A stretch of 25,921 bases of DNA, taken from positions 1-25,921 of IMG/VR virus record IMGVR_UViG_3300034418_007662, one strand, 5' to 3'. Source of the DNA: a virus. The notes under the pieces were generated by a model, which had not been told where the DNA came from, searched no databases, and saw nothing but the letters and a program-made list of their open reading frames with translations. Numbering within the stretch: position 1 is the stretch's first letter; every line of letters starts with the position of its first letter. The position numbers and the translations under genes are program-made. Shown here in pieces: positions 1-18,000 of this stretch.

Positions 1-579
1 TCCTGGTACGGTCTGCCGCTGCTCGCAATCGAGGCCAACAAAGGCGAAGCGCACATCAACGAGTTCCGCAACCGCAATTACCCCAAGCTTTTGCGCAGGC
101 CGCGCATCAACGTCATCGACGGCAGCAAGCTGGAAGACGCAATCGGCTTCTGGATGTCGGAGAGCAACCGCGCTGTGTGCCTCGCTACGCTAGACAGGTA
201 CATCCGCGACGGCAGGCTGGTCGATCCAGACGACGATCTGTACTCGGAGATGCACACGTTTATCGTCAACGAGACGACGGGCAAGAAGGAAGCTGCCAAG
301 AACTGCAACGACGACCATGTCATCTGCACGGCTATTGCCTGCCACCTGGACGACGCATTCCCGCTCGATGCAGGCAAGACCCGCCACCAGGTCAACAACG
401 CCCGTCAGGAAGCCGTCAAGGACGCCATGGCTGCAATCGCCCCGCGCGACATGTCTTCGGTCGTCCAGCGCATGCCAGATCGCCCGTTCATCTCGCCCGT
501 AGCCGTTGACGACGGCAAGCTGCCGGGCGGCGGCAACGCTTGGTGGTCAGGAACAAACCACGTTTACGACAACGATTAG
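1..579 (+). CDS. Terminase large subunit, C-terminal part (truncated by window edge)
   Basis: The frame is open from base 1, so the N-terminal ATPase half lies outside the window and 192 residues are visible. This is the nuclease half of the DNA-packaging motor, which cuts concatemeric phage DNA. Visible terminase traits are the block GLPLLAIEANKGEAHINEF near residues 4-22, a conserved Glu-x-Asn-x-Gly type strand, and the late segment NCNDDHVICTAIA around residues 101-113, whose paired Asp (104-105) match the metal-binding Asp of the RNase H-like nuclease fold. Between them, SEMHTFIVNE followed by a GKKEA stretch is the usual lead-in to that motif. The tail after about residue 150 is Pro/Gly-rich. 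The position upstream of the portal agrees. The internal Leu codon at base 91 is not a start. Family assignment is by recognition of motifs, not by a search. Confidence 0.9.
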   Translation, partial: SWYGLPLLAIEANKGEAHINEFRNRNYPKLLRRPRINVIDGSKLEDAIGFWMSESNRAVCLATLDRYIRDGRLVDPDDDLYSEMHTFIVNETTGKKEAAKNCNDDHVICTAIACHLDDAFPLDAGKTRHQVNNARQEAVKDAMAAIAPRDMSSVVQRMPDRPFISPVAVDDGKLPGGGNAWWSGTNHVYDND

Positions 580-626
580 TTGCATTTTGCGGCAGTATTG
601 CTGCACACTGCATCGCGAGGTGGGTC

Positions 627-911
627 TTGAACGATTTGTACCAAATTGCCGCTTTCGTCTCCGCATCAGGCGTTTTCCTGCTGCTCTGCCTTGAAATCTA
701 CCGCCTGCGCGGTCAACTCAAAGTTGCAGACACGCAGTTGCAGGACGCTATGCGCGACTCCAAGAACGAGCGCGAACGGCTCATCGCCGTGCTTGCCGCA
801 GTCCAGTCCGACAAAGTGCAGTACCATTTGGGGTTAATGACCGACTCCGACCTGCGCAAGAAGAACGAAGAACTCGCGGCGCTCAAGGCGTCGTTCCAAT
901 CTAGCGATTGA
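627..911 (+). CDS. Small membrane protein with C-terminal coiled coil; possible inner-membrane spanin
   Basis: I chose the TTG at 627 because AGGTGGG (618-624) lies at ribosome-site distance before it, while the in-frame ATG at 540 lies inside the terminase gene. The 94-residue product begins MNDLYQIAAF, has one hydrophobic segment at about residues 5-23, and continues as a charged helix with heptad-like leucines to the end. That outline (short N-terminus, one membrane span, long helical tail) matches Rz-type inner spanins, and in T7 the Rz gene (18.5) also sits beside the large terminase gene. It could equally be an unrelated membrane protein. No signal-peptide-bearing Rz1 frame is nested inside it. 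Existence of the gene is likely; the spanin role is inference from shape and position. Confidence 0.6.
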   Translation: MNDLYQIAAFVSASGVFLLLCLEIYRLRGQLKVADTQLQDAMRDSKNERERLIAVLAAVQSDKVQYHLGLMTDSDLRKKNEELAALKASFQSSD

Positions 912-921
912 GGGGTGGGAT

Positions 922-2670
922 ATGGCAGACAACTCAAATCAAACTGCTGGCAAAACTTACAGAAATTACACTTGGAATAAAGTTACGCTCCCAAGCGGTC
1001 GCACTGCTTATCAGAATTTGCGAAGTGGTCTAATTCTTTCAGTATCGCAATGGAATGATTTGGTCAGAACTAGAGATCCTAAAGCTCTTGGTGAAAACGT
1101 CAAAATGACGCCACAAGAGTTTCAAGAGTTTCAGGATTTGCCAGCAGATGTTTTGTCTAAAATGACAAAAACAAACGCCCCATTTTTTTCATTTCCTCCT
1201 GAATTTGAACAAGAACGCGCAGAAATGTATGCGCCTAGCGGGACAACAACTCAAGCACAAAAAAAACCAGCGACGCCTCAGTCTCGAGTTGCTCCGCAGA
1301 ACAAAGCTGCTTTACGTTTGGCTGGCCAGAAAGCATTTACAGAAGCTGTATCCGAATCCGCTAAAGCAATGCAAAGCGGCGCTCCTTCTGCTACTGATGC
1401 CAATGTTGTCCCTAACACGCCGTCTGGCCGTCCCGACTACAAGTACTACGCGGACATGCTGAACGCTGCCGACAGCAACGACTCGTACTACCGCGATTTC
1501 TTGAACCTGCGCAACCAAGCCCGTGCTGCTGCGCGCGAAGCTGCCGCATCCAATATGCGCTACCAGTTCGTGCCGATCCGCGACGACCGCGCCAACCGCA
1601 TCTACTTCGTCAACGCAGACGGTTCGGACGTCGTCCTCGACATGGGCAAGCCTGAAGATGTGCGCGAGTACCGCCGTGTCGCTGAGAAGATCGGCGTGGA
1701 CATCAACCACCTGTCTGACTGGATGGATCGGTCGTCCAAGCCTCTGGCTCGTTACAACATGCCTCCTGGGAGCAATGTGGATACGACTCCCGACTTTGGC
1801 TTCTGGCGCAAACTGCCGTCTACAAAGGCAGAAGGCGCTGAGCCTGCGATGGACACTCCGTCAACGCCGACAAACTTGGGCTTGTCGTTGGGCGAGCGCA
1901 ATCTGCCTCGCAGTGCCAAGATGCCGTCTCCGCAATCTACCCTAGAAACAATGCAGCGCATGCGCGACTTGAGGATGCCTTTGGGAGGATTTCCTGCGGC
2001 ACAGACGCCTGAGCCTGCGACCCCAGCGGCACCTGCACCTTCGGCTCCCGTCGCTCAAACAAAGCAAGCAGAACCAGCTAAAAGCGCGGAAGAACAAGGA
2101 ACAAAAATGCAGCAGCCTGCTGTTGCCGCCGTTGCTCCGCAATCTCAACAGTTTACTCCGCGCGCTGCCGCAGCGCCTCGTCCCGCAGGCGAAAGCACTC
2201 GCATGATGGAAATGCGTCGCGGACCTCGCATGGGCGAGATGGATCCGTCAATGCCAAGCGAGACGCTTGAGCGTACGGAAACTCCTACACCACTAGAATG
2301 GCAAAGAATGCTTCCATTAGTAAAAACAAGAAAAAGCACATACCCTAGAAGGGATTTTGTTCCAGATTTATATGACGGTGAGGAACAACTTCCAGATTGG
2401 TTGTCCAACTTGTCAGTGGCTCAAAACGTAATTGGAGAAAGTATTTTTAAGGGATTACGAAAAGACTCGATGTACAAAGACATTCCAGTTAGCAAACCAA
2501 ATGTCCGTCATCTTGAATCTGACCTTCCAGCAGAGCCACCATTGCCACCAGTCGAACAAGGCCAGGTAGGCGCACCTGTAGTTTTGACGCCAAGCAACAT
2601 GCCGCGAGTAAATCCTGAAGATGAAGATATGAGTCGCTTTAGGCAGTATCGCAACTTCATCCCGCACTAG
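922..2670 (+). CDS. Unrecognised 582-residue protein between terminase and portal
   Basis: I do not recognise this family. The ATG is preceded by GAGGGGTGGG just after the previous stop. Visible parts are an N-terminal region to about residue 80 rich in aromatic and polar residues; a Pro/Ala/Gln stretch around 105-175; a compact, charged, probably folded middle (about 170-300) with many Tyr, Asp and Arg; an Ala/Pro/Gln-rich linker around 350-425; and a Pro-rich C-terminus ending in RQYRNFIPH. Base composition changes inside the gene: about 922-1410 and 2281-2600 are clearly A/T-richer than the middle. No signal peptide or membrane span is seen. Lying between terminase and portal and followed closely by a glycine-zipper protein, it is probably a virion or assembly protein, but that is inferred from context only. 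Confidence 0.75.
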   Translation: MADNSNQTAGKTYRNYTWNKVTLPSGRTAYQNLRSGLILSVSQWNDLVRTRDPKALGENVKMTPQEFQEFQDLPADVLSKMTKTNAPFFSFPPEFEQERAEMYAPSGTTTQAQKKPATPQSRVAPQNKAALRLAGQKAFTEAVSESAKAMQSGAPSATDANVVPNTPSGRPDYKYYADMLNAADSNDSYYRDFLNLRNQARAAAREAAASNMRYQFVPIRDDRANRIYFVNADGSDVVLDMGKPEDVREYRRVAEKIGVDINHLSDWMDRSSKPLARYNMPPGSNVDTTPDFGFWRKLPSTKAEGAEPAMDTPSTPTNLGLSLGERNLPRSAKMPSPQSTLETMQRMRDLRMPLGGFPAAQTPEPATPAAPAPSAPVAQTKQAEPAKSAEEQGTKMQQPAVAAVAPQSQQFTPRAAAAPRPAGESTRMMEMRRGPRMGEMDPSMPSETLERTETPTPLEWQRMLPLVKTRKSTYPRRDFVPDLYDGEEQLPDWLSNLSVAQNVIGESIFKGLRKDSMYKDIPVSKPNVRHLESDLPAEPPLPPVEQGQVGAPVVLTPSNMPRVNPEDEDMSRFRQYRNFIPH

Positions 2671-2679
2671 GAGGACACC

Positions 2680-3141
2680 ATGTTCCAAAAGAAGGTCTAC
2701 GCACAAAAGACTGGTGAAGATTGGTCTGACAAACTCCTGACCAAAGGTTTGCCAATTGCTGGCGCTGTTGCTGGAGGAATTATTGGCGGCAAAATGGGTG
2801 GCCCTGCTGGTGCTGTCGGCGGCTCTCAAGCTGGCCAACAACTTGGAACTGCTCTTGGTGGTTTGCTTTCGGACGACCCGTACAGCGCTGCTCGCGTGCA
2901 ATCTAGCTTGATGGGGGCACCCAAGGCTGCTGATACAGCTTATGAAACATACCTTCGTCGCAAAGCCAACGAGGCGCAGACCAATCCACAAGGCACTGTG
3001 CCGCAGCAGCAAAGCCTTGCTCCTGTAAAGCAGCCGACTGTAACTTCTGCTGGCCCTGAAGTGCCTTCTGACTTTGGTGCAGGTTTCGGCGATTTGCCGT
3101 ATCCTACCCGCGCAAGCCGTTACGGCCTGTCGCTACGATAA
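2680..3141 (+). CDS. Small glycine-zipper protein, possible internal virion or membrane-active protein
   Basis: The start has a strong GGAGG site nine bases upstream and the gene follows its neighbour by nine bases. The 153-residue product carries a Gly/Ala-rich hydrophobic segment at about residues 24-66, with glycines spaced every few residues (AGAVAGGIIGGKMGGPAGAV, then a second patch GTALGGLLS). This is the look of glycine-zipper membrane-associating helices, which occur in phage ejection proteins and in small bacterial envelope proteins. The C-terminal half is polar, Pro/Gln-rich and probably disordered, and no signal peptide precedes the zipper. Function is unknown; an internal virion protein delivered with DNA is one reasonable guess because the genes on both sides are structural or packaging genes. 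Confidence 0.7.
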   Translation: MFQKKVYAQKTGEDWSDKLLTKGLPIAGAVAGGIIGGKMGGPAGAVGGSQAGQQLGTALGGLLSDDPYSAARVQSSLMGAPKAADTAYETYLRRKANEAQTNPQGTVPQQQSLAPVKQPTVTSAGPEVPSDFGAGFGDLPYPTRASRYGLSLR

Positions 3142-3151
3142 GGAGTCCTAG

Positions 3152-5152
3152 ATGGCACAGGGCAAGACGAAATCGCCGCCCATTACCAAGGGCTACGAAG
3201 GTGCAGAGACAAAGTCGCTTGCGCCTAGCGCAGGCGAAATCACCCAGTGGATGCGCACCTGCGAAACTGGACTCTTGCCCATTGCCACGGACTGGTTGCA
3301 GAACAAGCTGTTCTCCAAGGGTCTGCAATACCTAACTAACGCTGGTGACCACACCATTATGCTGGTGCCTGTTCCGCAGAACGCCAAGCGCATCACGGTC
3401 AACGTCTTCTCTGACAAGCGCCGTACGCTCATCTCCAAGTTCACGGCACAACAGCCTATTCCTGTTGTGACGCCAGCGACGTCTTCTTCGGACGATCGCG
3501 CTACAGCTCGCGCATGCGAACACCTGCTGCGCTGGTACTGGCGCAAGAACGAACTGTCGCGCGAACTGGACTACATGGCTGGCGACGTTGTCGATTGTGG
3601 CGGCGGATGGTGGCACATCTACTGGGATCCGACCGCAGGCGAAGAGAAAGAAGTCGTTGTCGCACCCAACGTGATGGATCTGTCCGTCGAGCAGCCCAAG
3701 ACCGAAAAGGTCAGGACTGGCGACGTTGTCTGTCACTTTGTGTCCAACTTCGAAATGCGCGTCGATCCTGCCGCTATGCGTTTGCGCGATGCCATGTGGA
3801 TTATGCGCGTGTCGTACATGTCCACAGAGGTCGCTGAGCGCCGCTGGGGCAAGAGTGTCTACGCCGATGCCGCAGGTACCCGTCCGTCCATCCTGACTCC
3901 TGACTGGCTGCTCAACCCGCAGCGCCTGCTTGCAGACGACGTCTGCCGCATCATCGAGTGCTGGTACAAGCCGTGCGAGCAGTACCCGACAGGGTTCTAC
4001 GCCGTCATCAGCGGCGCCAACGTGCTGCACTTTGAAGACGAACTTGTGGGCGGCGATTTCCCGTTCATCTACTGCGAGTTCGACCCCGACTGCGACAACT
4101 TCTACGGAACGACGCCCATGACTTATGCGCGCCGTCCGCAGATCGAAATGAACGGATTGCTGTCGCAACTGTCCGATGGCCGCGCACGCGGCATGTTCGG
4201 CGCCTGGGTTCAACCCCGCGGCGCCAACATGGACATCCCTACGGGCGCGCCACACGAAGTCCTTGGCTACAACGACACGTCTGGCAAGCCCACCTTTGTA
4301 CAGCCGCAGCCCACTTCGGATTCTGCCTACCGCATGATTGATACGTTCCATGCGCTGCTAGGACAGACTTCTGGCGTGACGGACACAGAGCAAGCTACAA
4401 GCGGCAAAGACCGCCTGTACGCGGCAGAGCAGGACAACACCAAGCTTGGCCCCGCGCTGCGCAGCCTGCATTCGTTCTTGAAGCGTTCGGCGATGAAGAT
4501 CCTGAACCTGTACCGCGACAATGCGCAGTTTGACTTGCTGTACGCAGTCTCCGACCAGAACGCAGAAAGCGATGTGCGTGCGTTTGTCGCCAATGAGATC
4601 AAGTACAGCGACGTCGAAATGAGCATCGACTCTGCGTTGCCGCTGAACCGTCAGGCCAAGCGCGAGCAGATTCTCTTGCTGTACCAGGCAGGCATGCTGG
4701 ACAAAGACCGCGCACTTAAACTCATGGAGTTTGGTGACGTACAGGACGCCATGGGAAGCAGCAACCTCGACCGTGAGCGTGCGCGCAACGAAAACCTCAT
4801 GCTGACCGTGCAGATGGTTGGCGTCGAAGAGTTTGAAGATCACGCTGCACACTTGGAAGAACATCTGTCTGAAATGAAGCAGGAAAAGTGGTATCTGTAC
4901 GACGAAGAGATCAAGAACAACTACAGGAACCACATCAACCTGCACCGCCAATTTATCCAAGCGCAACTCGGAATGGGCCAAGCACCACCAAACGGCTTGA
5001 CAAATCAAGAGGGTGGTCAAGACAATGCGGTAGGCGCTATGGCAGAAGTACCTGCCTCCAACGCGTCGAACGCTGTCATCCCGATCAACGCACCCGTAAG
5101 CGAACGGGACAATGCTGCGCTCGGTATCATCAACGCAACAACAATGGAGTAG
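3152..5152 (+). CDS. Portal protein (P22-like portal family)
   Basis: The portal forms the dodecameric ring at one capsid vertex through which DNA enters and leaves and on which the tail is built. The 666-residue length is near that of P22-type portals. Supporting segments are an N-terminal block with repeated Trp and Arg and GDVVDCGGGWWHIYWDP near residues 144-160, the clip/wing region, and QTSGVTDTEQATSG at about 405-418 followed by long helices with LPLNRQAKREQILLLYQAG near 496-514. Such a Gly-Val-Thr ring-proximal motif and trailing helical C-terminus are usual for podovirus portals. The last 60 residues are polar and probably flexible. An AAGGAG overlapping the upstream stop sets the ATG. 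It stands directly before scaffold and capsid, the standard order. Confidence 0.88.
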   Translation: MAQGKTKSPPITKGYEGAETKSLAPSAGEITQWMRTCETGLLPIATDWLQNKLFSKGLQYLTNAGDHTIMLVPVPQNAKRITVNVFSDKRRTLISKFTAQQPIPVVTPATSSSDDRATARACEHLLRWYWRKNELSRELDYMAGDVVDCGGGWWHIYWDPTAGEEKEVVVAPNVMDLSVEQPKTEKVRTGDVVCHFVSNFEMRVDPAAMRLRDAMWIMRVSYMSTEVAERRWGKSVYADAAGTRPSILTPDWLLNPQRLLADDVCRIIECWYKPCEQYPTGFYAVISGANVLHFEDELVGGDFPFIYCEFDPDCDNFYGTTPMTYARRPQIEMNGLLSQLSDGRARGMFGAWVQPRGANMDIPTGAPHEVLGYNDTSGKPTFVQPQPTSDSAYRMIDTFHALLGQTSGVTDTEQATSGKDRLYAAEQDNTKLGPALRSLHSFLKRSAMKILNLYRDNAQFDLLYAVSDQNAESDVRAFVANEIKYSDVEMSIDSALPLNRQAKREQILLLYQAGMLDKDRALKLMEFGDVQDAMGSSNLDRERARNENLMLTVQMVGVEEFEDHAAHLEEHLSEMKQEKWYLYDEEIKNNYRNHINLHRQFIQAQLGMGQAPPNGLTNQEGGQDNAVGAMAEVPASNASNAVIPINAPVSERDNAALGIINATTME

Positions 5153-5155
5153 CCC

Positions 5156-6124
5156 GTGGCTGATAACAACGTCCAGACCAGCACTAGCGAAAGCAGCGGA
5201 AGCGAACAGTTTTCGTGGCGCAACCTACCCAACGGCGACGAGTTCGCATCGGGGATGGCAGAGTTTGCGCGCGGCACGCAAGGAGAGGATTCGGACAGCG
5301 ACCTCGGCGAGCATATGCGCGCAGAGGACTACAGCGACGAAGGCGATTCCAGCGAAAGCGAAGTCCAAGTCGAGCAGCCTGTCAGCAAACCAGCCAAGAC
5401 TGGCCCTGTGGACATGCAGTCGCTGATGCTCCAGATGCAGCAGCAGCAATTGCAGATGTTCCAAGAGATGCAGCAGCAACTTGCCTCGACGCAGACCAAC
5501 CAGGTCGCCGCCGCTGTGCAGGCTGCCCTTGCGCAGATGGGCCTTGGCAGGCAGGAGCAGGTGCAAGAGGAAGTCGATCCGATTGCAGCGCTCGACCCCG
5601 ATGACCCCGACTACTTCTTCAAGAAGACCGATGCGCACATCGCCAAGCTGGAGAAGCAGAACCGCATGCTCATGGAGCGCCTTGAAGGCGAGCGCATGCA
5701 GCAACAGCAGGCTGTCCAGCAGCAGCAGGCGCAGCAAGCGCAACAGGCGTTTGTGTCGTCGGTGAGCAACGACCTTGGCCGTGCAGTCGATTACATCTTC
5801 CAAGGATGGCCCGACTCGCCCCAGGTGCAGTCGCTCAAGAACATGGCAGCAAACACTGTGGATGCAGAGTGGCACGCTCACGGCTACAAGCCTGAAGGCT
5901 ACGCTATCGGCATCCGCAAGGCTCAGGAAATGCTAAAGAGCATGGAGCCGCTCAAGCACAATTTCGCCCCGCGCGCCAAGACGCCAGGGCCAGTCGGTCG
6001 CGGGAACAATCCTCCGTCGTCCATGCCAGAGCCGCAAGGCCTTTCGTGGCGGCAGATGTTTGATACTACCCGCAAGAATGATGCCTCTGCTCTTCGGGAG
6101 GCAATCAAGAATGGTCTGCACTAG
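5156..6124 (+). CDS. Capsid assembly scaffolding protein
   Basis: This is a 322-residue product starting at GTG, with GGAG (5146-5149) six bases before it and only three bases after the portal stop. The order of regions is classic for a scaffold: an acidic, Ser-rich N-terminus (to about residue 80), a Gln/Met-rich helical block (about 86-130), a second coiled coil starting near AKLEKQNRMLMERLEGERM and running into a polyglutamine-like stretch (about 160-200), and a basic C-terminus ending in a short helix. Scaffolds nucleate the procapsid through basic C-terminal helices that touch the capsid protein. The segment LDPDDPDYFFKK precedes the second coil. There is no protease signature, so it is a separate scaffold and not a protease fusion. 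The gene sits immediately upstream of the capsid gene. Confidence 0.85.
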   Translation: MADNNVQTSTSESSGSEQFSWRNLPNGDEFASGMAEFARGTQGEDSDSDLGEHMRAEDYSDEGDSSESEVQVEQPVSKPAKTGPVDMQSLMLQMQQQQLQMFQEMQQQLASTQTNQVAAAVQAALAQMGLGRQEQVQEEVDPIAALDPDDPDYFFKKTDAHIAKLEKQNRMLMERLEGERMQQQQAVQQQQAQQAQQAFVSSVSNDLGRAVDYIFQGWPDSPQVQSLKNMAANTVDAEWHAHGYKPEGYAIGIRKAQEMLKSMEPLKHNFAPRAKTPGPVGRGNNPPSSMPEPQGLSWRQMFDTTRKNDASALREAIKNGLH

Positions 6125-6172: not shown

Positions 6173-6178
6173 CGTGTG

Positions 6179-7537
6179 ATGGCTACTCCTATTACCGCGT
6201 TTGAGGGTGTCAATACCGTACCCAATCTACTCAAGCGCCGTTACGGTAAGGTCGCCCAGACCATTCCGTTGAAGTTTGACCTGTACAAGTGGCTGGACGC
6301 TGCGCCGTCCTTTGACTTCAAGGGACGCGATTTCGTGTTCCCGGTTATCACTGGCCCTGGTGGCGGCTTCACGGCCTACGCGGAAGGCGGCAAGTATCCT
6401 GGTGCGGTCAAGCCCGTCATCACGGATGCCACCCTGCCCATCACGCAGATCGCGACGCTGGTGGCGTTCTCGAACCTCGACATGATGCTCGGTAAGAGCG
6501 ATGCCGATGGCTTCCTGCGCAACACCGACAAGATCGTCCAGCTCGCGGTTGAGAACTTCAAGCGCAAGCTGAACATCGAGTTGTACGGCCTGCACCCGTT
6601 CAAGAAGAGCAACGGTGCTGCGTTGGCCGCTGGTGAGCAGTCGCTCAACGGCGTGATCAACCAGATCACTGCTGTTGCTGGTGGCCCGCCCGTCACCACC
6701 ATCACCGTGGATCGTCCGCTGGGCTACGCCAATGCCGACCTCGGCGCGCAGCGCTTTACGCGTTACTTGATTCCGGGCGATGTCTTGTCGTACGGCACCA
6801 TCGCTGGCAACGTGTACACCGTCAAGGGTCACCTGCAAATCAACAGCGTGAACCGTTCGGCCAACACGGCGAGCATCACCGTGCTGTCGAGCACCGGTGG
6901 GCAGCCTGCTGGCAATGACTGGCTGTGCTACGCGGACGTCGATCTGGCGACCAACAACAGCTACGGTCGTATGCCGCAGGGCCTCGGCACCGTCCTGTAC
7001 CAGGATGACATCGGTGGCGTTGCCCAGTCGATCGAAGGCGTGACTGTGACCAGCAACGACCCGCTGGGCTGGTTCTCGCAGAAGATCACTTCGGCTGGCC
7101 CCTTCGACCAGACCGATTGGCATCAGCTGAACCGTAACATCGAGATCGTGTCGCAGGGTCCTGAGACTGCTATCGTCAACGACCCCACGATGAAGGACAC
7201 CTACGCTGGTACGATCATCCCCGATCAGCGTCTGGTTGCGCAGGAGGCGAAGGGCGGCTTCAAGGAGCCTGAGTTCGCCAGTGGCCGTCCGATCAAGATG
7301 GTCTACGACATGCACTGCCCCTACGGCATCACCTTCTTCCTGTCGAAGGAAGAGGTGTTCTGGCTCAAGACGATGGCTGAGCCTGGTTGGGACAATGCTG
7401 GCGGCGGTCAGTGGAAGTCGTTCCAGCAGCAGGATGCCGTGTACGGTGCCTTCAAGTGGTACTTCAACATGGGCTTCCAGAACCTGAACAGCCACGGTGC
7501 GGTCAAGGGCATCCAGATTGCCAACGCCCCGCTGTAA
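6179..7537 (+). CDS. Major capsid protein
   Basis: A 452-residue shell protein. I start it at the ATG at 6179, six bases after AAGGAG, in preference to the GTG at 6176, which is only three bases after it. The sequence begins MATPITAFEGVNTVPNLLKR, has a loop-rich early region with aromatic and Gly patches (about 44-75), and a helical part around residues 100-140 (DGFLRNTDKIVQLAVENFKR) like the spine of HK97-fold capsid proteins of podoviruses. A large beta-rich insertion follows, with no immunoglobulin-like tail domain apparent. Codon choice is the most uniform and G/C-ending in the window, as expected for the most abundant product. Position after portal and scaffold is decisive. Hairpins lie just before and after the gene. 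Confidence 0.9.
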   Translation: MATPITAFEGVNTVPNLLKRRYGKVAQTIPLKFDLYKWLDAAPSFDFKGRDFVFPVITGPGGGFTAYAEGGKYPGAVKPVITDATLPITQIATLVAFSNLDMMLGKSDADGFLRNTDKIVQLAVENFKRKLNIELYGLHPFKKSNGAALAAGEQSLNGVINQITAVAGGPPVTTITVDRPLGYANADLGAQRFTRYLIPGDVLSYGTIAGNVYTVKGHLQINSVNRSANTASITVLSSTGGQPAGNDWLCYADVDLATNNSYGRMPQGLGTVLYQDDIGGVAQSIEGVTVTSNDPLGWFSQKITSAGPFDQTDWHQLNRNIEIVSQGPETAIVNDPTMKDTYAGTIIPDQRLVAQEAKGGFKEPEFASGRPIKMVYDMHCPYGITFFLSKEEVFWLKTMAEPGWDNAGGGQWKSFQQQDAVYGAFKWYFNMGFQNLNSHGAVKGIQIANAPL

Positions 7538-8525: not shown

Positions 8526-9278
8526 ATGAACCTTGGCGAAGCTCGGGCGCTAGTCCGCATGTACATCAACGAACCCAAGGCGCAGACTTGGAGTGATGCC
8601 CAATTGAACGGCATCATCCAAGAGGCCAACCGCGAGGTGTACAACCGCCTTGTGTCGATCTGTCCGCAGTGGTTTGCCAGTGAAAAACAGTTCACTTGGA
8701 CAGCCATGACGCCCAAGGTCAACATTCCCACCAAGCTGGACTCTACAGGTACGGCTATCGGTGATGTGCGCCGTGTCCTCGGTGTGTTCGTCTTGCAGAA
8801 GATCGGCAACGTCAACGTGGACAACCCGCCGTACCCGATGATTCCCAAGACGCGCATCTCCGACCTGTACGAGGTCAAGTTCAACAACTACACGGTTGTG
8901 CCGTCTATCGCGACCAGCTATCCCAGCAACCTGTCGGCGAGCATCACATACAGCTACTGCCTGCTTGGCCCCGACATCTACTGCTGGCCCGTGCCTCAGA
9001 CCGACCTTATCATCAGCCTGTTCCAGATCCCGACAGTTGCTACGCCGACTGCTGACAACAACGAACTGCTCGTACCAGGACGGTTCTCCAACCCTACGCA
9101 GTTGTTCGACCACCACGAACTTGTGCCTCTGCTTGCTGCGGTCAAAGCCAAGACGGCTGTCGGCGACCCTGACAACCATTTGTCGAGCATCTACGAATCC
9201 CGTATGGAATCGAGCAGGCAGTCGCTTGCGATTGACCAGCAGATCCAGAACCCTGTCCAAGTACGCGGGGTGGGCTGA
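8526..9278 (+). CDS. Head-completion / tail adaptor protein (P22 gp4-like)
   Basis: The protein has 250 residues. The opening MNLGEARALVRMYINEP, followed by WSDAQLNGIIQEANREVYNR (about residues 22-41), is the helix-turn-helix lead of gp4-type adaptors that dock onto the portal and prolong the channel. A beta-rich centre follows with many Pro and Tyr (WPVPQTDLIISLFQIP near 157-172), then a helical C-terminus (HHELVPLLAAVKAKTAVGD) typical of adaptors, which thread a tail along the portal. It lies upstream of the gp10-like hub, as in P22-type tails. Start: ATG at 8526 after CAGGGG. Assignment is by pattern and context; an unrelated adaptor fold is possible. Confidence 0.72.
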   Translation: MNLGEARALVRMYINEPKAQTWSDAQLNGIIQEANREVYNRLVSICPQWFASEKQFTWTAMTPKVNIPTKLDSTGTAIGDVRRVLGVFVLQKIGNVNVDNPPYPMIPKTRISDLYEVKFNNYTVVPSIATSYPSNLSASITYSYCLLGPDIYCWPVPQTDLIISLFQIPTVATPTADNNELLVPGRFSNPTQLFDHHELVPLLAAVKAKTAVGDPDNHLSSIYESRMESSRQSLAIDQQIQNPVQVRGVG

Positions 9279-11419
9279 TGGGCATTGTAAACTACCAGCC
9301 GCAGCAAGGCTCGATGCAGTTGTCCGTTGCGGAGCAGCGGCCTGTAGACTGGTCTTTGCTTGTCAACGGACGCATTGTCGATGGAGTACTGCAGACGCGC
9401 CCAGGTTGGGAAATCATGCGCGCACCGCAGACCTACTCTACTGTTGCGGATCCATCTTCTCCAGACGGCTTTGCCTATCAGGTCAACGACTGGGAAGTGG
9501 CTGTAGTAGATGCAAGCAAGCCGCTAGGATCGTTTCTGTTCTCTTCGCCTACAGGCGACGAGTGGATCTTCAGCATTCGCAACGATGGCGCTGCTTACAA
9601 CAAGTTTGAAATCTGGACGACCAGTGGACAGAAAGTCCTAGACCAAGCCAACTTGGCTATAGGACTTCTAGTTCCATCGGTCAACGGCAAGCTGATTGAC
9701 AACTTCAACAGCATGTTGTTTGACCCGACAGACAAGACGTATTGCTTTGTCCGCTTTGTCGATACGGTGTTCTTCTGCAACGGTGGCTACCTGTGGCGTT
9801 GGGAACCTCTGCGCTCTATCCATCGTCCTGAGATTGTCTCTGCATTTCGAAACGCCAACAACGCAACGGCAGGCAACTATGCAGTCGGGCCAATCTACGG
9901 CGCCAGCATCCTTGCTGTGCATCTTGACTGCCTAGTTGTTTCTGGCTTTGAGCAGGGCACGACGATTGCTTTCGACAAAGCTGTGCGTGTCAACAACTCC
10001 GCTTCTCCTGTGCGTCCAGATCCCAGCAAACCTGGGCCATTGCTGATCACGCCAGACGACAACGGTGTTGTGTTCAATCCGTACTACATGATGGTTTCGG
10101 ATCCGCTGTTGCCTAACTGCTTCCAGATTGCAGGCATATTTCAAGCGCCTTTGACAAATCCTATTTCGGCTATGGCCTCGCACACAGGCCGTCTTGTCAT
10201 CTGGTCGCAGTCTGAGATGGGCGTAATCTCTGGGCAAATCGTTGTAGCGAACCAGATTTCTTTCCAGATTGTATCGACCAGCATTGGCTGCATGGGCAAG
10301 CGCGCCTTCTGTCAGACCTCTCAGGGTTTGCTTGTGTTCCTTGGCGACACGAATGTCTACGGCTGGGATGGCAGCGGTATCCCGCAGATTGTGTCAGAGC
10401 AGATCCAGATGTTGTTCCGCGAAGGAACGCAAGGTTTCTGGCGCTGGAACTTCACTACACCTACCTATGACGTCGGTGAAATTGCTGCGCTTCCCTTCCG
10501 TGCTTTGACCACCAAATCAGATGACGCTTGCGCTGTATGGAACGTAGCCAACGGATATGTCGCTATCTCAGTGACGTCTGGAACGCAGAAAGAAAGCAAC
10601 GACTTGGTGTTGTGCTGGAGTCCGACTAGCAACCAGTGGTGGATTGATTCTGTCGAGCCTGCTACACCTGAGTTTGTCCTTGCTGGTGCGGTGCCTGATC
10701 AATATTGGCAACCCAACTTCAGTGCGCCCAAGAGTGCTGCTGTAAGCCGCCACACGTTGATGGTATCCGAAGCTGACCCCACGCTGATCTTTGCTCAGTG
10801 CTACGCATACGAAAGCTATACGACAGATGTGCCGTCGATGAGCATCTGCGTATTGCGCGGGGATACAGACGACGCCTTTATGTACGCTTCTACATCGCTG
10901 CCTGACAAGAACCGATTCGCGTTCTTGGCTATCTCTGCGCCTGTGTTCCTTGGCGATAGCGAACACAAACTGCAACGCCGTCTGTTCATGCGCACAATGG
11001 GTGTTCGCCCCAACGAAGTGGACATGTTCGTTCCTGAATTGACGCTGCACATCATCCCTGAAGACGGCCACACGGATGTGGTCAACAGCACAGACACGAC
11101 TTCTGTGACTTCAGAGCAGGCGCTTAGCACTTGGCGCGACAGCCAACTTGGCGCTTCGTACTGGCAGGATGCACCAGGTGCACCTGTATCAGGCATGTAC
11201 GGCGGCACAGGAACATTTCCGCCTGGATGGCAGAACAGCTGGATCAAGCGCTGGTATCCTCTTGCGCCTGTAGACCGTCGTATCGACATTCCTTCCCGCG
11301 TGACGCAGTGGTTCCGCATTGCCTTGTCCAAGGTCGTCCTTGAGGCAAATGCTTCGCCTACGCTCATCCTTTCGACCTCTGTCGAGATGAACCCCAACTA
11401 CGGCACGCGGAGGGGATAG
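9278..11419 (+). CDS. Tail hub / packaged-DNA stabilisation protein (P22 gp10-like)
   Basis: This 713-residue protein starts at an ATG that overlaps the previous stop by one base (TGATG). Near the N-terminus, residues 32-45 include VDGVLQTRPGWE, a signature placed at the start of gp10-type proteins. The rest is beta-rich with regularly spaced Trp/Gly blocks, for example GRLVIWSQSEMGVISG near 308-323 and GDTNVYGWDGSGIPQI near 357-372, as in a beta-propeller-like hub. In P22 the hub forms a ring below the adaptor, closes the channel and anchors tailspikes. Size exceeds P22 gp10, consistent with the larger versions seen in other podoviruses. No signal peptide or enzyme motif is visible. Confidence 0.75.
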   Translation: MGIVNYQPQQGSMQLSVAEQRPVDWSLLVNGRIVDGVLQTRPGWEIMRAPQTYSTVADPSSPDGFAYQVNDWEVAVVDASKPLGSFLFSSPTGDEWIFSIRNDGAAYNKFEIWTTSGQKVLDQANLAIGLLVPSVNGKLIDNFNSMLFDPTDKTYCFVRFVDTVFFCNGGYLWRWEPLRSIHRPEIVSAFRNANNATAGNYAVGPIYGASILAVHLDCLVVSGFEQGTTIAFDKAVRVNNSASPVRPDPSKPGPLLITPDDNGVVFNPYYMMVSDPLLPNCFQIAGIFQAPLTNPISAMASHTGRLVIWSQSEMGVISGQIVVANQISFQIVSTSIGCMGKRAFCQTSQGLLVFLGDTNVYGWDGSGIPQIVSEQIQMLFREGTQGFWRWNFTTPTYDVGEIAALPFRALTTKSDDACAVWNVANGYVAISVTSGTQKESNDLVLCWSPTSNQWWIDSVEPATPEFVLAGAVPDQYWQPNFSAPKSAAVSRHTLMVSEADPTLIFAQCYAYESYTTDVPSMSICVLRGDTDDAFMYASTSLPDKNRFAFLAISAPVFLGDSEHKLQRRLFMRTMGVRPNEVDMFVPELTLHIIPEDGHTDVVNSTDTTSVTSEQALSTWRDSQLGASYWQDAPGAPVSGMYGGTGTFPPGWQNSWIKRWYPLAPVDRRIDIPSRVTQWFRIALSKVVLEANASPTLILSTSVEMNPNYGTRRG

Positions 11420-12099
11420 TGCGGTTTCCCAGCAACAGGAACGTCGGCACAGTATTCCCGACTGCATCCTTGCCTACAGGCAACTTGTCTGTAGATACCG
11501 CATTGCGCGCACTGTACCAAGACCGCACGCGGCTACGGAACATGTGCGGGGTTGTATGCTCTCCATCGGATGATCTAGACGACATACTCAGGGCGTGCGA
11601 AGACGGCGACACCGTCTTGCTGCTGCCAGGCATTTACGATGCCTACACGACAATCAACGTCATCCGCAGCATCAGCATTGTAGGTCTTGGGGCTATCATC
11701 AAAGGCGAAGGCTTGCTGATGGATTTGCAAGCAGACGAATGCGACGTCCGCAATGTCACGTTTGAACGCACAGATCGTGTAGCTGCTGGGCCTACAAGCG
11801 CAGCCGTACTTGTATCTGGCAACGCTTCGCTAGTCGATGGCTGTATCTTCTCGACACCTGGGCCTAGGGGCTTGCAGGTAGACGGCGATTACTGCTCGGC
11901 GCAGAACAACAGATTTCTTGAGAACGCAAGCAGGCAGGCAGGCGACAGTGATGTGTACTGGGCAGACGGTGCAATTTGGGGCACAGCATGCGGCAACATG
12001 TGGAGTCGCACTGTCGGCAGTTTTGTCGTAGACTACCGCTGGGTTGATAACCTGACGGAGTCCGCCAACGGAAACGCAGGCATCATCAACATACGATAG
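11419..12099 (+). CDS. Right-handed beta-helix protein, tail-associated
   Basis: The 226-residue product starts at GTG overlapping the upstream TAG by one base, with GGAGGGG at 11409-11415. After a short N-terminal part, residues about 45-190 show successive short strands separated by Gly/Asn/Asp turns (DTVLLLPGIY, SISIVGLGAIIKGEG, CDVRNVTFE, ASLVDGCIFS, AQNNRFLENAS). This is the rung pattern of pectate-lyase-like parallel beta-helices. Such folds occur in tailspikes and depolymerases, but the protein is short and shows no clear catalytic acid cluster, so a structural or glycan-binding role is as likely. Following the hub gene, it probably belongs to the tail tip or needle region. Function is uncertain. 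Confidence 0.7.
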   Translation: MRFPSNRNVGTVFPTASLPTGNLSVDTALRALYQDRTRLRNMCGVVCSPSDDLDDILRACEDGDTVLLLPGIYDAYTTINVIRSISIVGLGAIIKGEGLLMDLQADECDVRNVTFERTDRVAAGPTSAAVLVSGNASLVDGCIFSTPGPRGLQVDGDYCSAQNNRFLENASRQAGDSDVYWADGAIWGTACGNMWSRTVGSFVVDYRWVDNLTESANGNAGIINIR

Positions 12100-12110
12100 C
12101 GGGGTCACAG

Positions 12111-12695
12111 ATGGCATACGGGCCAAAGCTGCAATTCATCAAGGCGGGAGATGCGCTAGTCGCAGATACCGTCATGCAGAACTTCCAGACGATTGTGGAC
12201 TTTCTGCGCGCGATCCCGTCGAACAACCTGTTGCAGTACAAGTACACTTGGTCTGGTCAAGGCGAAGTCGGCGCGATTGGCCCAGGTGCTGGTACGCTGT
12301 ACAGCGGCTATCAGAAACTCAACGTCGGCGGGACTCCTGTCGGAATTGAACTGACTGCAACGCTTGTGCTGCCTGCACCTGGCCCACTTGGTGCTGGACA
12401 ATCGGTAGTCGTCAAATGGCAGAAGTGTACGCCAGCCAACGTGTCTGGCCCAAAGAATACAGATGTCTGGGTTGATTTGGCGCTTCCTATCACGTTCGAC
12501 CCGACCAACACCACGCTTGCCGATCTTGTCTTGGATCCAAGCCAAAGCGCATACTGCCAGACGGCAGTGTTGAACAATCTGCCAGCTATCATTGATGGCG
12601 ACTGGATCCGTCTGGAAGTTGAAGCAATTGGCGCTGGTGTTCAAATCAGCAAATGCTCTGCGCAGATCAACATCAAGAACCCGCTTCGTTCGTAA
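12111..12695 (+). CDS. Beta-rich probable virion protein, unknown function
   Basis: This 194-residue protein follows the beta-helix gene by eleven bases with a GCGGGG-type site. The first 35 residues contain a short helix (DTVMQNFQTIVDFLRAIP), resembling the small N-terminal attachment helices of trimeric phage fibre or head-fibre proteins. The remainder alternates beta strands and Gly/Pro loops (for example VDLALPITFDPTNTTL and WIRLEVEAIGAG). No signal peptide, membrane span or catalytic motif is seen. Context between the tail-hub genes and ejection proteins suggests a minor tail or capsid-surface component. I do not recognise a named family. Confidence 0.65.
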   Translation: MAYGPKLQFIKAGDALVADTVMQNFQTIVDFLRAIPSNNLLQYKYTWSGQGEVGAIGPGAGTLYSGYQKLNVGGTPVGIELTATLVLPAPGPLGAGQSVVVKWQKCTPANVSGPKNTDVWVDLALPITFDPTNTTLADLVLDPSQSAYCQTAVLNNLPAIIDGDWIRLEVEAIGAGVQISKCSAQINIKNPLRS

Positions 12696-12705
12696 GAGGT
12701 GCAAG

Positions 12706-14106
12706 ATGCTAGGCAACCCACGCAAGACAGGTCTGAGCAACGGCATCGCCCAGCAAGAAGGCTATCCGACCTCTGGCGAGACAAGTGCCAACGCAGGCGC
12801 ACTTCCTGCTCAACGTGCGCAGCAGCCGTTTGAACACAAGCGCGCACAGACAAACATTCCCCAGCCGACTGCTCGTCCGCTAGCTGGTGGTGGAACCCTC
12901 AATGGAGGGGCCGTACAGGGCGCACAGTACAAGACTGCGCCGCAGCCGATGTCTCCCTCGGTTGCAGGGTTTGTCGCTATTCCTGCGGTCACTACGAAGT
13001 TTGCTCAACCAGGTGGGCCGTCCCTTCCAGGTGCAACGCCGATCCAGATGCAACAGCAAGCTGGGCCTAGCTACTTTGCACCTGGACAAGGACAAGGGCA
13101 GGGATTGCCGCAACCGTCTTCGCAAGGACAAGCTGGCGTCCCTCCTAGCGGACAGGCTTTGCCGCAACCATCAGGACAAGCCGCTGGACAGCCAAGCATC
13201 CCGCAACAGGGCATGTATTCGGCTACACCAGCAGCATCGACACCGCCGCCTCCGCAGTTGACTCCTGTTCCGCAGAAAGGATTTCTTCCTAGCGGAGGAG
13301 TCCAAGGTGGAACAGGGTCTTTCGATTTGATGCCTCAAAACTATGGGCAGCAGCAAACCTCGACAATTGTTGGCGCTGCAACGGGCGCACAGCCTCCACA
13401 GCCAACCGCGACGGGATACGACTACCTCAAAGAACTTGAGGGCATGGGCAAGTACTACGATGTGGGTGGCGAGTACGACACTGCCCAGCGTGCACTGATG
13501 GACGAGAAAATGCGTCAGCAGAACGCGATGATGGCTGCTCAGAACCAGCTTGCTGGCCGTGGCGGCAACATTGCCCAAGTGTCGCAGAACTACGCCAACC
13601 AGCTTGCCCAAATGGAATACCAAGCGCAACGCGCTCAGCTTGAGCAGCAAGCCAAGCAGCAGCAGTTCCAAGGGCAGATGCAGTACGCAGAATCTGTCAG
13701 GAAAGCAAAGATGGACATTGTCGGTCTTGCTAAAGACTTGGACTTGGGGCTGGACGAAGAAGACTTCAACCTTATTGCTGCTGACATCGTCAATCAATAC
13801 GGCCCCAACCCTACGGCTGGGCAAATGCTTCAAGTTCTCAGTGGCAAAGGCGACACAACTACCAAGACTGAGAAACTCACAGGCTTTGCTAATGAGATGC
13901 GTGAGTTGGTCAACAGTTATGCTCTTGGTGCTGAATCGCAAATGGTGGACAAGATCACCAAGATGGACAAGAAGACGCTCAAGAACTTTGCGGCAACCTA
14001 CAAGTCGTTGCTTCAAGATGTGCTTGATGACACTTGGGGCGATGACAACGAAGCCATTATGGATGCGCTCAATGCGGCTGGTGTAGATACTAGCGAATTT
14101 GAATAA
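12706..14106 (+). CDS. Internal virion (ejection) protein 1, Pro/Gln-rich N-terminus
   Basis: I start at the ATG at 12706 after AGAGGTG; in-frame codons upstream lie inside the previous gene. The product has 466 residues. Residues 1 to about 240 are low-complexity and Pro/Gln/Gly-rich, with near repeats of the type LPQPS-x-GQA around 126-160. From about 245 the protein turns helical, with a coiled coil near residues 270-330 (MRQQNAMMAAQNQLAGRG, then Gln/Glu-rich) and an acidic C-terminal domain containing DLDLGLDEEDFNLIAADIV. As the first of three large proteins after the tail genes it occupies the place of T7 gp14-type ejection proteins, which leave the head and insert into the outer membrane. 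No membrane span is evident. Role is inferred from order and composition. Confidence 0.68.
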   Translation: MLGNPRKTGLSNGIAQQEGYPTSGETSANAGALPAQRAQQPFEHKRAQTNIPQPTARPLAGGGTLNGGAVQGAQYKTAPQPMSPSVAGFVAIPAVTTKFAQPGGPSLPGATPIQMQQQAGPSYFAPGQGQGQGLPQPSSQGQAGVPPSGQALPQPSGQAAGQPSIPQQGMYSATPAASTPPPPQLTPVPQKGFLPSGGVQGGTGSFDLMPQNYGQQQTSTIVGAATGAQPPQPTATGYDYLKELEGMGKYYDVGGEYDTAQRALMDEKMRQQNAMMAAQNQLAGRGGNIAQVSQNYANQLAQMEYQAQRAQLEQQAKQQQFQGQMQYAESVRKAKMDIVGLAKDLDLGLDEEDFNLIAADIVNQYGPNPTAGQMLQVLSGKGDTTTKTEKLTGFANEMRELVNSYALGAESQMVDKITKMDKKTLKNFAATYKSLLQDVLDDTWGDDNEAIMDALNAAGVDTSEFE

Positions 14107-14120
14107 AGCAGGGGGACTAG

Positions 14121-15086
14121 ATGGCGCTTACAAGTAGCCGTGAAGAACTTGCACGCGATGCTCAAGAGCGGCAGATCCGCGCTCAGCAAGAGATGCAGGC
14201 TGCTGCTCAAGAGGCAGCCACGCTCAAAGAGCTAGCCGACATCCAGCCGCTCGCTCCCCAGCAGCCGACCAGGTTGCCTATCGACTGGCAGCACAGCGCC
14301 GACAGGGCTGCTGCACGGGCTGCAAACCTTGAGCAGATGCAATTGCAGCACCAACAGCGTCTTGCAGAAATGCAGGCGCGAGAGCAGGCAGAGCGCGACA
14401 GCCTTGCGTACAAGATGCAGATGCAGGCCAAGTACGCTCCTAAGCGTACAGGCGGTGGCGGTGGCGCTGGTTACATGACCAGTTTGCAAAAGGAATACTT
14501 GAAACTATCGCGAGAAGTTCCTGTTGAGCCAGAACAAAAAGAACGATGGCGAAAATCGCTTGCAGCCTACGAATTGGCTATCAAAAAAAGCGGAAAGTCG
14601 GGAGTTGAATTTTTGGATGCCGTCAAGAGTGGACAGTCAATATTTGACGTATCTCTGGGCGGAACCAAGGTTGAAATAGATACTGCATCGGCTGAGCGAA
14701 AAGCAGAATATGCAGAAAGGTTGGAACGTCTTCGAAATGAAGCCAAAGCAAAATCTACCGAAGCCGGTGCTTCGCCTAGAGACAAAATCAATGCTTGGGA
14801 AGCAGTTCTCAAAGCAACACAAAACGATTATGGTGAAGACGTCAAAGCAAAACGACAAGAAGCACTCAACCAGTTGGCATTGTTGGGTAGTTCACCAAAA
14901 CCTTCTGTTCCTGTTCAATCACCAGCGCCAGCAGCGCCGGCTCCTTCTCAAAGCGCAACGGCACCTGCTGGCAACAAGCCTTCGCCAGACGCTCAATGGA
15001 GCGACAAGGCTGGTATGTGGTTCCGCAAGTCGGGTGGAAAATATCAAACGTGGAACGGGACTTCTTGGTCTGACGTAGGCGGTTGA
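14121..15086 (+). CDS. Internal virion (ejection) protein 2, helical, with Gly hinge and Trp-rich tail
   Basis: The product has 321 residues; ATG after GGGGG. Residues 5-105 form an almost continuous Gln/Ala/Glu/Arg helix (coiled coil). A hinge GGGGGAG at about 111-117 (bases 14451-14471) follows, then a second, Lys/Glu-rich helical region to about 250, an Ala/Pro linker around 258-290, and a compact tail with four Trp (SDKAGMWFRKSGGKYQTW near 294-311). Base composition falls from G/C-rich to A/T-rich right after the glycine hinge. It stands between two other ejection-type genes, the slot of T7 gp15. The Trp-rich tail could bind another virion protein or peptidoglycan. No catalytic motif was seen. 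Role is inferred from context. Confidence 0.68.
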   Translation: MALTSSREELARDAQERQIRAQQEMQAAAQEAATLKELADIQPLAPQQPTRLPIDWQHSADRAAARAANLEQMQLQHQQRLAEMQAREQAERDSLAYKMQMQAKYAPKRTGGGGGAGYMTSLQKEYLKLSREVPVEPEQKERWRKSLAAYELAIKKSGKSGVEFLDAVKSGQSIFDVSLGGTKVEIDTASAERKAEYAERLERLRNEAKAKSTEAGASPRDKINAWEAVLKATQNDYGEDVKAKRQEALNQLALLGSSPKPSVPVQSPAPAAPAPSQSATAPAGNKPSPDAQWSDKAGMWFRKSGGKYQTWNGTSWSDVGG

Positions 15087-15087
15087 C

Positions 15088-18000
15088 ATGAGCGACGAGC
15101 AGGAATTTCTGAAAGCACTTAGCGCGTCTCAGCAACAGCCAAAGACTGTTGGTGACGAACAGGAATTCTTGAATGCGTTGAACAAATCAAAACCCGTTGT
15201 CAATGACGAACAAGAATTCTTGAATGCGTTAAGCAAATCGAAGCCCGTTGCAACAGCACCTGTAGCGCCTTCTGTTCCTGTTCAAACGCAAGTCCAAGAG
15301 AAACCATCTGCGCTAGCCAGTGCAGAGAAAGACCTTACAGAGTCTGAGGTCTTTGGTATTCCTGTCGGCTCCTACGTCCAGAAAGCCAGGCATTGGTTGA
15401 TTGGCGAGCCAGTAGCTGCACTGCCTACCGAAATTCTTGGGCCTGTAAAGCCTACAGGTGCCCAGGCTTCGCAAGACATGCAGATGGCTTCGCGGGAATC
15501 TGACTTGCCTGAGTACCGCAAGTTGCGAGGATTTGGCGCGCGCTCTGCTATCCAAGCAGCAGCCAATGTTTCTGCTGGCGCGGTAGGTGTTCTCGGCTCT
15601 GTAGTCAGCCTTCCTTTGGAATTTGCAGTATACGCTGGACGGTATCTTGGCGGAGCGTCGTCAACGATGGCCAGCCTTGGCGCCACATCTCTGTACGATA
15701 TGGGCCACCATGCTTTGGCTGAAGCAATGTTTGGAAAGGAAACAGCTCGACATTTGTCTAATTCAGAGAAGCTATTTGCAGAAGAGTACGACAAGAATCT
15801 TGATGACGCTGGCAAACGTCTAGAAAAAAACCCTGAATCTTTAGAAGCAATTCAAGCATTCGACAAAGCCTTGAACGCTCCACGCTCACGGCTCTACGCC
15901 GAATGGCGCAATGATATTGAAGCTGTAGCCGAAGAAACCGTGAAAGGTTTGGCCTTTGGTTTGAATCCAGCGATATACACGTTTATCAAAGGCAAGGCCA
16001 ACAAAGACCCGCTTGCGTTTGACAAAGCGATGGAAGCCTTTGCCGCGTACCCGCTAGAGACTATTCTACCTCTCACTCACGCGGCTAAAGGCGCTCTGCG
16101 TGTCGGCGGCAAAGAAATCCCTGTACGTCCAGTTGAACCTGCGCAACAAGCCCAACCATCTGCACAGGCTGCCCCTGCCCCTGCACCTGCGCGCGCACCT
16201 GCATCTGAAGCTGTTGTGCCTGTAGATGTGGAAGTCGTCCGCACTATCAAAGGCGAACCTGTCAAGTTGAACGAGTTGGGTCGCGTTGTGTTTGAGCCGT
16301 TTACTACGGCAGAGAAATACAACGACGCAATGCGCGCCAAACTCGGAGACAGTGCGGTCGATGTGTTGCGTTACGGCAAAGAGCGCGTTGAGCCTGCTTG
16401 GCAGAAGTTTGCGTTCGACGTAGTCACACAGCGGGAAATGCAGAAGCAACGCGCTGTAGCGGCTGCTAGGGCGCCGCAATACGCCAACCGTAGTGAAGCA
16501 GCAGACAAGCTTAAACTTGCCGTACACGACTACAACCTGCTACGCGATATTGAAACAGAACTGGCCGATCCCAAATACGACGGCGCAACAGCGTTGCAGA
16601 AGTTCCAGGCAATCGAAGGCACCCTTGGCGAAACAACGTCGATGCGGGACGTTCCTGTGTTGGACAGGGATAGCAGGCAGATTGCTACCAACCTGGGCGA
16701 ATTGTTTGTCGCCAACGGCATGAACGTAGAGACGGCTCAACACGCTATCCCGTTCCTCATCTTTGAATCGCTGCGCAACGAGAAAGCAACAGCAACGCAG
16801 ATTGAAGGATTCAGAGGCGTAAAGGAACAAGTCCAACAAGCAGATCCGTTTGTAGTCCTGTCAGAAATACAGGACAAGATTGCCAAGTCCAACCCGCAAG
16901 AAGCTGCTGCTTTGGTTCGGGCTATCGACACGTTCATTACCTCGCGCAGGAACGATCCCGCGTTCTTCGCCGCTGCGGATGCGTTCTGGTCAAACAAGAA
17001 GCAAGTTGCTATCGGAACCAACGTGTACCGCTGGACGCCAGGTCGCGAAGTCATGGCGCGAGAAGGCTATGTGCGTGCGTTGGAGTCCATCAGGGAGAAA
17101 GATGCCCAAATGGGCAGGACTGTGTTCGACATCAGCATTCCTGAGTTTGGTGAACTGCGCAAAGACTATACGTTCCAACTGTACAACAACCTGATCGACG
17201 ATTTGCGCAGCAGCCCACAGGGTCAAGAGCGTGTGTTGAACATGCTGCGTTCTCAACCGCTTTCGCGCATGGCTGCAAACCCGACTGCGCCTGCACACAT
17301 CCAAGCGCTGGCTGCGTTTTCCAACAAGCCAGGTGGACTCCGCCGTCAACTTGTTGACCTGTTGAACCAGGCCGCTATCGAGGCAGCTGAGAATTACGGC
17401 TACGACCCTGCGGTAATTGCAAAGCGATACGACATGTACCTGTCGCGTGCGTTTACGGATGCCATAGATGCAAGTTCCAAACTTGCAGATTTCATCAGCA
17501 AGATGGAAAGCGAATCGCCAGCTTTGGGCAAAGCTGCAACGGTCATACAGAGTTCGCGGTTCAAGCGCAGGCTATCGCAAGAGTCCAGCAACGAGCGGTT
17601 CACTGACATGGTCAACCGTGGAGACATTTCGCTGCACGACGCGTTGGCCATGACGGTTATTAGCGCGATGAACGTCAACAAGCACCTGGCCAACATGGCA
17701 GCAATTACTGACCAGCTAGTTGCCCTTGGTGTGACGTCAGACACTCCTCGACCTGGGTACACAAAACCAAATACAAAGCGCGTTACAGATCGTAAACAAG
17801 CCGCTAGCGACGATCCGTACAACTTTGTCTATGGAAAACTTGCAACAAAGTACATCCGCTCCGATGTCGCTAACCAGCTTGGCATGGTGCGAGATGCCTT
17901 CCAGAAGTTTGGTGATTCTCAGCCTTGGGCGCGAGTGTTTACAGACTTGGGTGGCGAGGTACTGAAGTTCAACAGGTTTACGCACACCATGTTGAACTCA

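Follow-up and report, generated by a model that had tools for sequence, protein, structure and literature searches.

Two adjacent genes between the terminase and portal genes of a viral genome, encoding a Pro/Ala-rich protein of 582 residues (the mosaic protein) and a glycine-rich protein of 153 residues (the zipper protein), may well specify extra virion proteins that are internal, probably ejected and part of the genome-delivery apparatus of a podovirus, with their genes next to the portal gene, a reading to which we assign a probability of about one half. The genome belongs to a small, little-known group of podoviruses, which are short-tailed bacterial viruses. The mosaic protein has a fixed core between largely replaced wings, and both genes have been swapped among close relatives beside static neighbours, a pattern that suggests membership in the DNA-delivery machinery. 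Counting against this reading, neither protein is tied to known ejection proteins by a family or fold match.

Gene order and relatives

The window, which is the whole 25,921-nt virus record IMGVR_UViG_3300034418_007662, starts inside the large terminase gene (782-838 aa as a full ORF in relatives) and continues on one strand with genes for a 94-aa protein, the mosaic and zipper proteins, a P22-like portal, a scaffold-like protein and the coat protein (Table 1), with gaps of 3-51 nt from position 911 through the coat gene. An earlier note, made from the letters of this DNA, had placed the mosaic and zipper ORFs between terminase and portal, and both exist as placed, tightly spaced (9 and 10 nt to the next gene), with ribosome sites of the AGGAG/GAGGGG type that can be read directly in the sequence; a third gene (that of the 94-aa protein) also lies there and had been missed. 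Its TTG start was picked by eye and by comparison with relative G004, and its product combines a hydrophobic helix (Kyte-Doolittle 2.07) with a charged part that looks coiled-coil-like by eye. This gene is present in all four relatives (98% identity in G001-G003, 49% in G004) and is static among the close ones.

Table 1. Features of the window discussed in the text (all on the + strand)
Feature	Positions	Residues	Basis or remark
Large terminase, C-terminal fragment	1-579		phrog_24361 terminase, E 3.7e-4; 98-99% identity to G001-G003
94-aa protein	627-911	94 aa	Single hydrophobic helix followed by a charged tail
Mosaic Pro/Ala-rich protein	922-2670	582 aa	Core common to four relatives; wings largely replaced
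N wing	922-1401	aa 1-160	Homology break at 926-932; GC3 0.31
Hairpin-like motif	1009-1053	aa 30-44	One copy per N wing in five homologues
Fixed core	1402-1812	aa 161-297 (137 aa)	Equal length in 5/5; GC3 0.75
C wing	1813-2670		Predicted disordered; pLDDT <50 for 295-582; patchwork; GC3 0.45
Glycine-rich zipper protein	2680-3141	153 aa	Homologues in four relatives
Glycine-rich segment	2734-2862	aa 19-61	GxxxG-type runs in 5/5 homologues
P22-like portal	3152-5152		PF16510, E 1.7e-16; phrog_156, E 4.4e-27
Scaffold-like gene	5156-6124		By position
Coat gene	6176-7537		phrog_14242, E 6e-9
Tail-region genes (three)	9278-12695	713, 226, 194 aa	Second divergence island; no family match
Putative ejection-protein cluster	12592-20067	504, 321, 1659 aa	By position and size alone

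IMG/VR was searched with the mosaic, zipper, portal, terminase and N-wing sequences, which yielded four relatives (G001, 41,584 nt; G002, 29,977 nt; G003, 19,462 nt; G004, 31,279 nt) along with a distant portal at 22% identity (L011); no relative was retrieved with the N wing as sole query, and distant relatives may have been overlooked because these scans begin with short peptide patterns. The two ends of the G001 record (L028, L029) overlap over 241 nt, in which 5 positions mismatch; this genome is therefore probably near-complete at about 41.3 kb. The portal is 98-99% identical to those of G001-G003 and scores well above the PF16510 cut-off (60.3 against 26.1 bits). The order terminase, 94-aa protein, mosaic, zipper, portal is identical in all five genomes (the window and four relatives). 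The earlier note had held that independent occurrence in relatives would speak against a functional pair; since the two stand together in 5/5 genomes, no such separation was seen, and within this one small group they are always gained and lost together. Chance ORFs are excluded by conservation and dN/dS: both genes are real, given relatives in four IMG/VR records and a mosaic core under purifying selection.

In profile searches of Pfam, PHROGs, NCBIfam and PADLOC the mosaic protein matched nothing, and the zipper protein gave only low-scoring glycine-rich matches. No relative of either was found among annotated phages, and none among bacterial genomes with the terminase and mosaic alignments as queries. 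Annotated-phage matches of the core and the 94-aa protein (E 0.6-5), four plasmid-collection rows for the core, and the lone PDB sequence match of the mosaic protein (E 0.67) were taken as chance. By BLAST, the mosaic and zipper proteins have no segments in common with the other compared genes of these genomes. No Rfam family was matched in the window at gathering thresholds, and no tRNA was found in the window or in the two end stretches of G001. A literature search, in which subscription journals were thinly covered, returned no description of this gene arrangement.

The earlier note had remarked that terminase and portal genes are often adjacent. Eight of ten distant records were counted (one was unannotated and one had no portal in view), and 1-4 annotated genes occupy the terminase-portal gap in five of these (Shocker, Brad, ctKpZ937, ctEqG8 and CRP-7), while the gap is empty in ctuNt529 and ambiguous, by the labels, in DS1 and ctLwi270; a gap gene is therefore ordinary. 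Neither the glycine run nor the hairpin-like motif described below occurs in any of 13 gap proteins from six records and the upstream ORFs of the unannotated record, a set in which one protein is labelled terminase, the DS1 terminase is unlabelled, and the one gap protein of ctEqG8 and a 62-aa protein of ctLwi270 are left out.

A fixed core between replaced wings

The mosaic protein is Pro/Ala-rich, as the earlier note had said: Pro and Ala each make up 11% of it, compared with 5% and 9%, respectively, for the portal. The DNA of the window matches G001 and G003 up to position 926 and G002 up to 932, a break that falls at the start codon (922); matching resumes at 1405 and continues at 88-91% over 1405-1838/1840, beyond which only patches remain. 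The core thus delimited is 93-94% identical to those of G001-G003 and 51% identical to that of G004, with a dN/dS of 0.04-0.07 against G001-G003 that denotes purifying selection; the whole protein is only 46-53% identical to those of G001-G003. Across the homologues the N wings range from 160 to 465 aa and the C wings from 133 to 311 aa. Long N-wing likeness (low-complexity filtering on) is confined to the pair G001 and G003, and shorter patches nearer the core connect G001, G002 and G003. The N wing of the window has a 40-residue patch in common with G002 (35%, E 0.003), and its C wing has a 20-residue patch in common with G002 (80%) and a final 25 residues that match G001/G003 (48%); the wings of G004, likewise filtered for low complexity, match none of the others. 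The core is the part of highest GC3 in G001-G003 also (0.78-0.83), and in G004 its GC3 (0.45) is scarcely above that of the wings (0.36 and 0.44).

Structure prediction, which the earlier note had named as a check, succeeded for the core: modelled alone by AlphaFold2 from five sequences (pLDDT 81, pTM 0.70), it is predicted to form a compact alpha-beta domain in which a long helix is combined with a sheet of three strands and further helices, while most of the model of the whole protein cannot be used (mean pLDDT 45). No confident structural match came of it. Foldseek searches of BFVD (viral models) and the PDB returned nothing at E 0.001 or better, the best VIA-align result was Z 4.5 (rmsd 7.3, 79 aligned), and rows for vaccinia entry-complex, RadD, chemokine and polo-box folds were weak and set aside.

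Every N wing contains one small hairpin-like motif, with Tyr/Phe, a few residues, Gly/Gln, a hydrophobic residue, Thr/Ser/Leu and then Gln/Glu-aromatic. This pattern, drawn up after the sequences had been seen, turns up in 0.2-1% of cases when the first 110 residues are shuffled and in 0.7-1.5% when whole proteins are, and has no copy in 7,400 aa from 20 other genes of the window; its five occurrences amount to four types because those of G001 and G003 are near-copies. The predicted model of this region, of moderate confidence, has three strands and a helix. A likeness to WW domains, noted by eye, was dropped when no Pfam match was found.

The glycine-rich protein

The zipper protein is 68-73% identical to its homologues in G001-G003 (60-72% over the matched part) and 32% identical to that of G004. 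The earlier note had taken it for a membrane-active glycine zipper. The glycine-spaced segment is there, but it is weak as a zipper (10.9 bits against PF05433, cut-off 24.2) and unexceptional in hydrophobicity, so that the basis for membrane action is a modest glycine-rich segment; the best 19-residue Kyte-Doolittle mean in the protein is 1.36. The usual transmembrane cut-off is 1.6, above this value, and a gp14-like partner would be expected to have several transmembrane helices. A role like that of T7 gp14 is not specific to the zipper protein, as the coat (1.34) and a 147-aa protein (1.41) equal it and the 713-aa (1.69) and 1659-aa (1.72) proteins exceed it; it is one candidate for a small membrane role, since the 504-aa and 321-aa proteins (1.12 and 0.58) have no convincing membrane helix. 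PHROG matches (best 1.8e-5) fall on glycine-rich inner stretches of large phage proteins, tape-measure proteins among them, most of which have 550-2,000 aa, and were treated as composition, as was a match to PdsO (0.011) far under the PdsO cut-off.

Two islands of divergence

Synonymous divergence was compared gene by gene. At the protein level, the portal, the scaffold and the coat have 96-99% identity to their counterparts in the three closest relatives, with dS of 0.07-0.24. In the comparison of the window with G001/G002, dS is 0.27/0.29 for the terminase, 0.27/0.34 for the 94-aa gene, 0.24/0.23 for the portal, 0.15/0.15 for the scaffold, 0.14/0.07 for the coat, and 0.09/0.10, 0.07/0.06, 0.35/0.39, 0.12/0.04 and 0.05/0.02 for the 147-, 143-, 250-, 110- and 120-aa genes. 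The corresponding values, rough where above 1 because near saturation, are 1.19/1.57 for the mosaic and 1.01/1.06 for the zipper gene, 0.96/1.08, 1.03/1.03 and 1.11/0.94 for the 713-, 226- and 194-aa genes, and 1.62/1.46, 1.32/1.12 and 1.87/0.34 for the 504-, 321- and 1659-aa genes. Against G003, which ends early, the zipper (1.43) and mosaic (1.21) genes again stand apart from the remaining compared genes (0.09-0.27). Within the first 20.4 kb, the sole other such island is the tail and putative ejection block (9278-20067). Faster protein change alone is ruled out, for synonymous sites diverge too; the simplest account of the high dS is that alleles of a more distant lineage have come in by replacement.

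Between G001 and G002, dS is low for the zipper gene (0.33), the mosaic core (0.24) and the five genes of 9278-15086 (0.02-0.33; 0.02-0.18 for the three of 9278-12695). The zipper gene and core thus group as the genes of 9278-15086 do, with the window set apart and G001 placed with G002, and the grouping matches in the two islands, on either side of about 6 kb in which the genes hardly vary; it amounts to one contrast, because only three genomes span both islands (G003 and G004 end earlier). There are exceptions in the mosaic N wings, where G001 and G002 differ (dS 0.97 for the whole gene), and in the 1659-aa gene (1.79), where the window goes with G002. Composition runs similarly in the window: GC3 is 0.69-0.80 in the head genes, with the core alike, and 0.46-0.62 in the second island, to which the wings and the zipper gene (0.44) are closer than to the head genes. 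This argument is weakened by the 713-, 226- and 194-aa genes of G001 and G002, whose GC3 (0.67-0.70) is near that of the head genes. That the pair are additional ejected proteins, one of the options raised in the earlier note, is the best supported of these, though indirectly, on the evidence of divergence like that of the tail and putative ejection block and unlike that of the static head genes.

Several further observations concern the downstream genes. The first gene of the putative ejection cluster may start near 12706, and convincing family matches for the cluster are absent in Pfam, PHROGs and NCBIfam, a match of the 1659-aa protein to NCBIfam SseD (E 0.031, 14.4 against 130 bits) lying far under the cut-off. 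The 1659-aa protein (15088-20067) is 92% identical to that of G002 and 58% to that of G001, and has been exchanged independently of the block. Two more divergent spots lie past 20.4 kb. One, a third small island, is a 213-aa gene (20774-21415; 47% to G001, with compared neighbours at 97-100%), and the other is the fibre-like gene (22702-25191): its first 294 aa are 91% identical to G001 and the remainder is mostly unmatched, which looks like a swapped tip. Family matches of the latter gene are to phrog_4636 (tail spike) and to phrog_511 (internal virion protein). Between 21557 and 22642 lie an endolysin-like gene and two further strongly hydrophobic ORFs.

Proposed role and alternatives

As constituents of the delivery apparatus, both proteins would be made late, together with terminase and portal, as their place in the gene run implies. 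The 137-aa core, for which docking is proposed because it is conserved and of fixed length, would bind a constant part of the head, most likely the portal or scaffold, and so enter the procapsid. At infection the Pro/Ala-rich wings, each N wing bearing its hairpin-like motif, would exit via the portal and come into contact with the envelope or cytoplasm of the host. Insertion of the glycine-rich protein into a host membrane, in the role of the small membrane protein gp14 of T7, may follow and is the weakest step of the scheme. Alleles of the pair are replaced together with those of tail and ejection genes while the head genes stay, possibly owing to contacts that these parts make with the host or among themselves.

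A tentative alternative is that the proteins are structural and not ejected, a portal-docked or scaffold-associated factor of head or neck assembly whose wings vary because they touch variable tail proteins. The adjoining portal gene and the conserved core of fixed length suit such a factor, and the pair groups equally with the tail-region genes at 9278-12695 and with the putative ejection genes; however, wings that vary two- to three-fold in length are unusual for a rigid joint, and the glycine-rich partner is left unexplained. It is doubtful, though conceivable, that the mosaic protein is a delivery platform, with a constant packaging domain docked on portal or scaffold, wings exchanged as cargo and the glycine-rich partner acting at the membrane; the cargo and carrier of the earlier note fit the mosaic protein itself, with its constant core and replaced wings, better than they fit the pair. 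Close relatives would then put different proteins into the host via the same portal.

Replacement of the N wings from the start codon onward, the patchwork of the C wings and the independent exchange of N wings and 1659-aa gene would also accord with injected or expressed proteins of host takeover or counter-defence, encoded at a recombination hot spot whose resemblance to the tail and ejection block is coincidental. This is unlikely, as core and zipper are kept in all five genomes, the core is under purifying selection, and PADLOC, a library of defence rather than counter-defence models, gave no match at E 0.1. Early membrane-acting factors, as also raised in the earlier note, are disfavoured by a same-strand packaging and head run with gaps of 9-10 nt; a scan of 400-3400 for promoters of the sigma-70 consensus type gave a single site, which is on the - strand (1.6 on average in shuffles), and terminator-like sites numbered 5 against 4.0 expected. 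Late membrane factors that stay outside the particle, for superinfection exclusion or lysis timing for example, would account for the glycine-rich segment and the strong hydrophobic helix of the neighbouring 94-aa protein, but are very unlikely given the endolysin-like and hydrophobic ORFs elsewhere and a Pro/Ala-rich protein with a constant core that misfits simple exclusion proteins.

If the pair does belong to the ejected delivery proteins, part of the podovirus delivery apparatus lies outside the usual cluster, where it would have been overlooked because its genes sit in the packaging block, and the design of constant core and replaced wings could serve naturally as a tag by which other proteins are brought into the head. 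Where two distant gene blocks diverge in step, sequence alone offers a test of which virion parts must fit each other.

Comparison with known systems

The glycine-spaced hydrophobic segment of the zipper protein resembles the glycine zipper 2TM family (PF05433) and the glycine-rich segments of tape-measure proteins, but the protein falls well under the Pfam cut-off, and the PHROG matches to inner stretches probably reflect composition. Tail fibre genes, as described in PMC10386132, have a constant attachment part and a replaced tip, and the mosaic gene is like them in having one attachment-like part conserved and the rest swapped among close relatives. Unlike in fibre genes, its constant part is central with both ends replaced, and it sits in the packaging block without a fibre family match.

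The closest comparison is with the podovirus ejection proteins (T7 gp14/gp15/gp16 and P22 gp7/gp20/gp16). PMC8954989 describes podovirus ejection genes as a small cluster of gp14-like, gp15-like and larger gp16-like genes, and gp15-like proteins as diverging faster than portals; according to PMC10386132, the genes for internal virion proteins generally lie on the right-hand side of the structural block and show more divergence or mosaicism. By the first description, the pair does not bring gp14-, gp15- and gp16-like genes together, the candidate for such a cluster being at 12592-20067, and no recognisable relative of the pair was found in Pfam, PHROGs, NCBIfam or PADLOC beyond the low-scoring glycine-rich matches of the zipper protein; both proteins do diverge faster than the portal between the window and G001-G003. 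The pair resembles the T7 and P22 proteins in the location of its genes in the packaging and structural region, in the association of a small partner with a larger one, and in fast, mosaic evolution relative to the portal. It differs from them in having no sequence match to them, in lying between terminase and portal and not in a downstream cluster, and in the construction of its larger partner, whose fixed core is flanked by wings that are replaced and in part predicted to be disordered.
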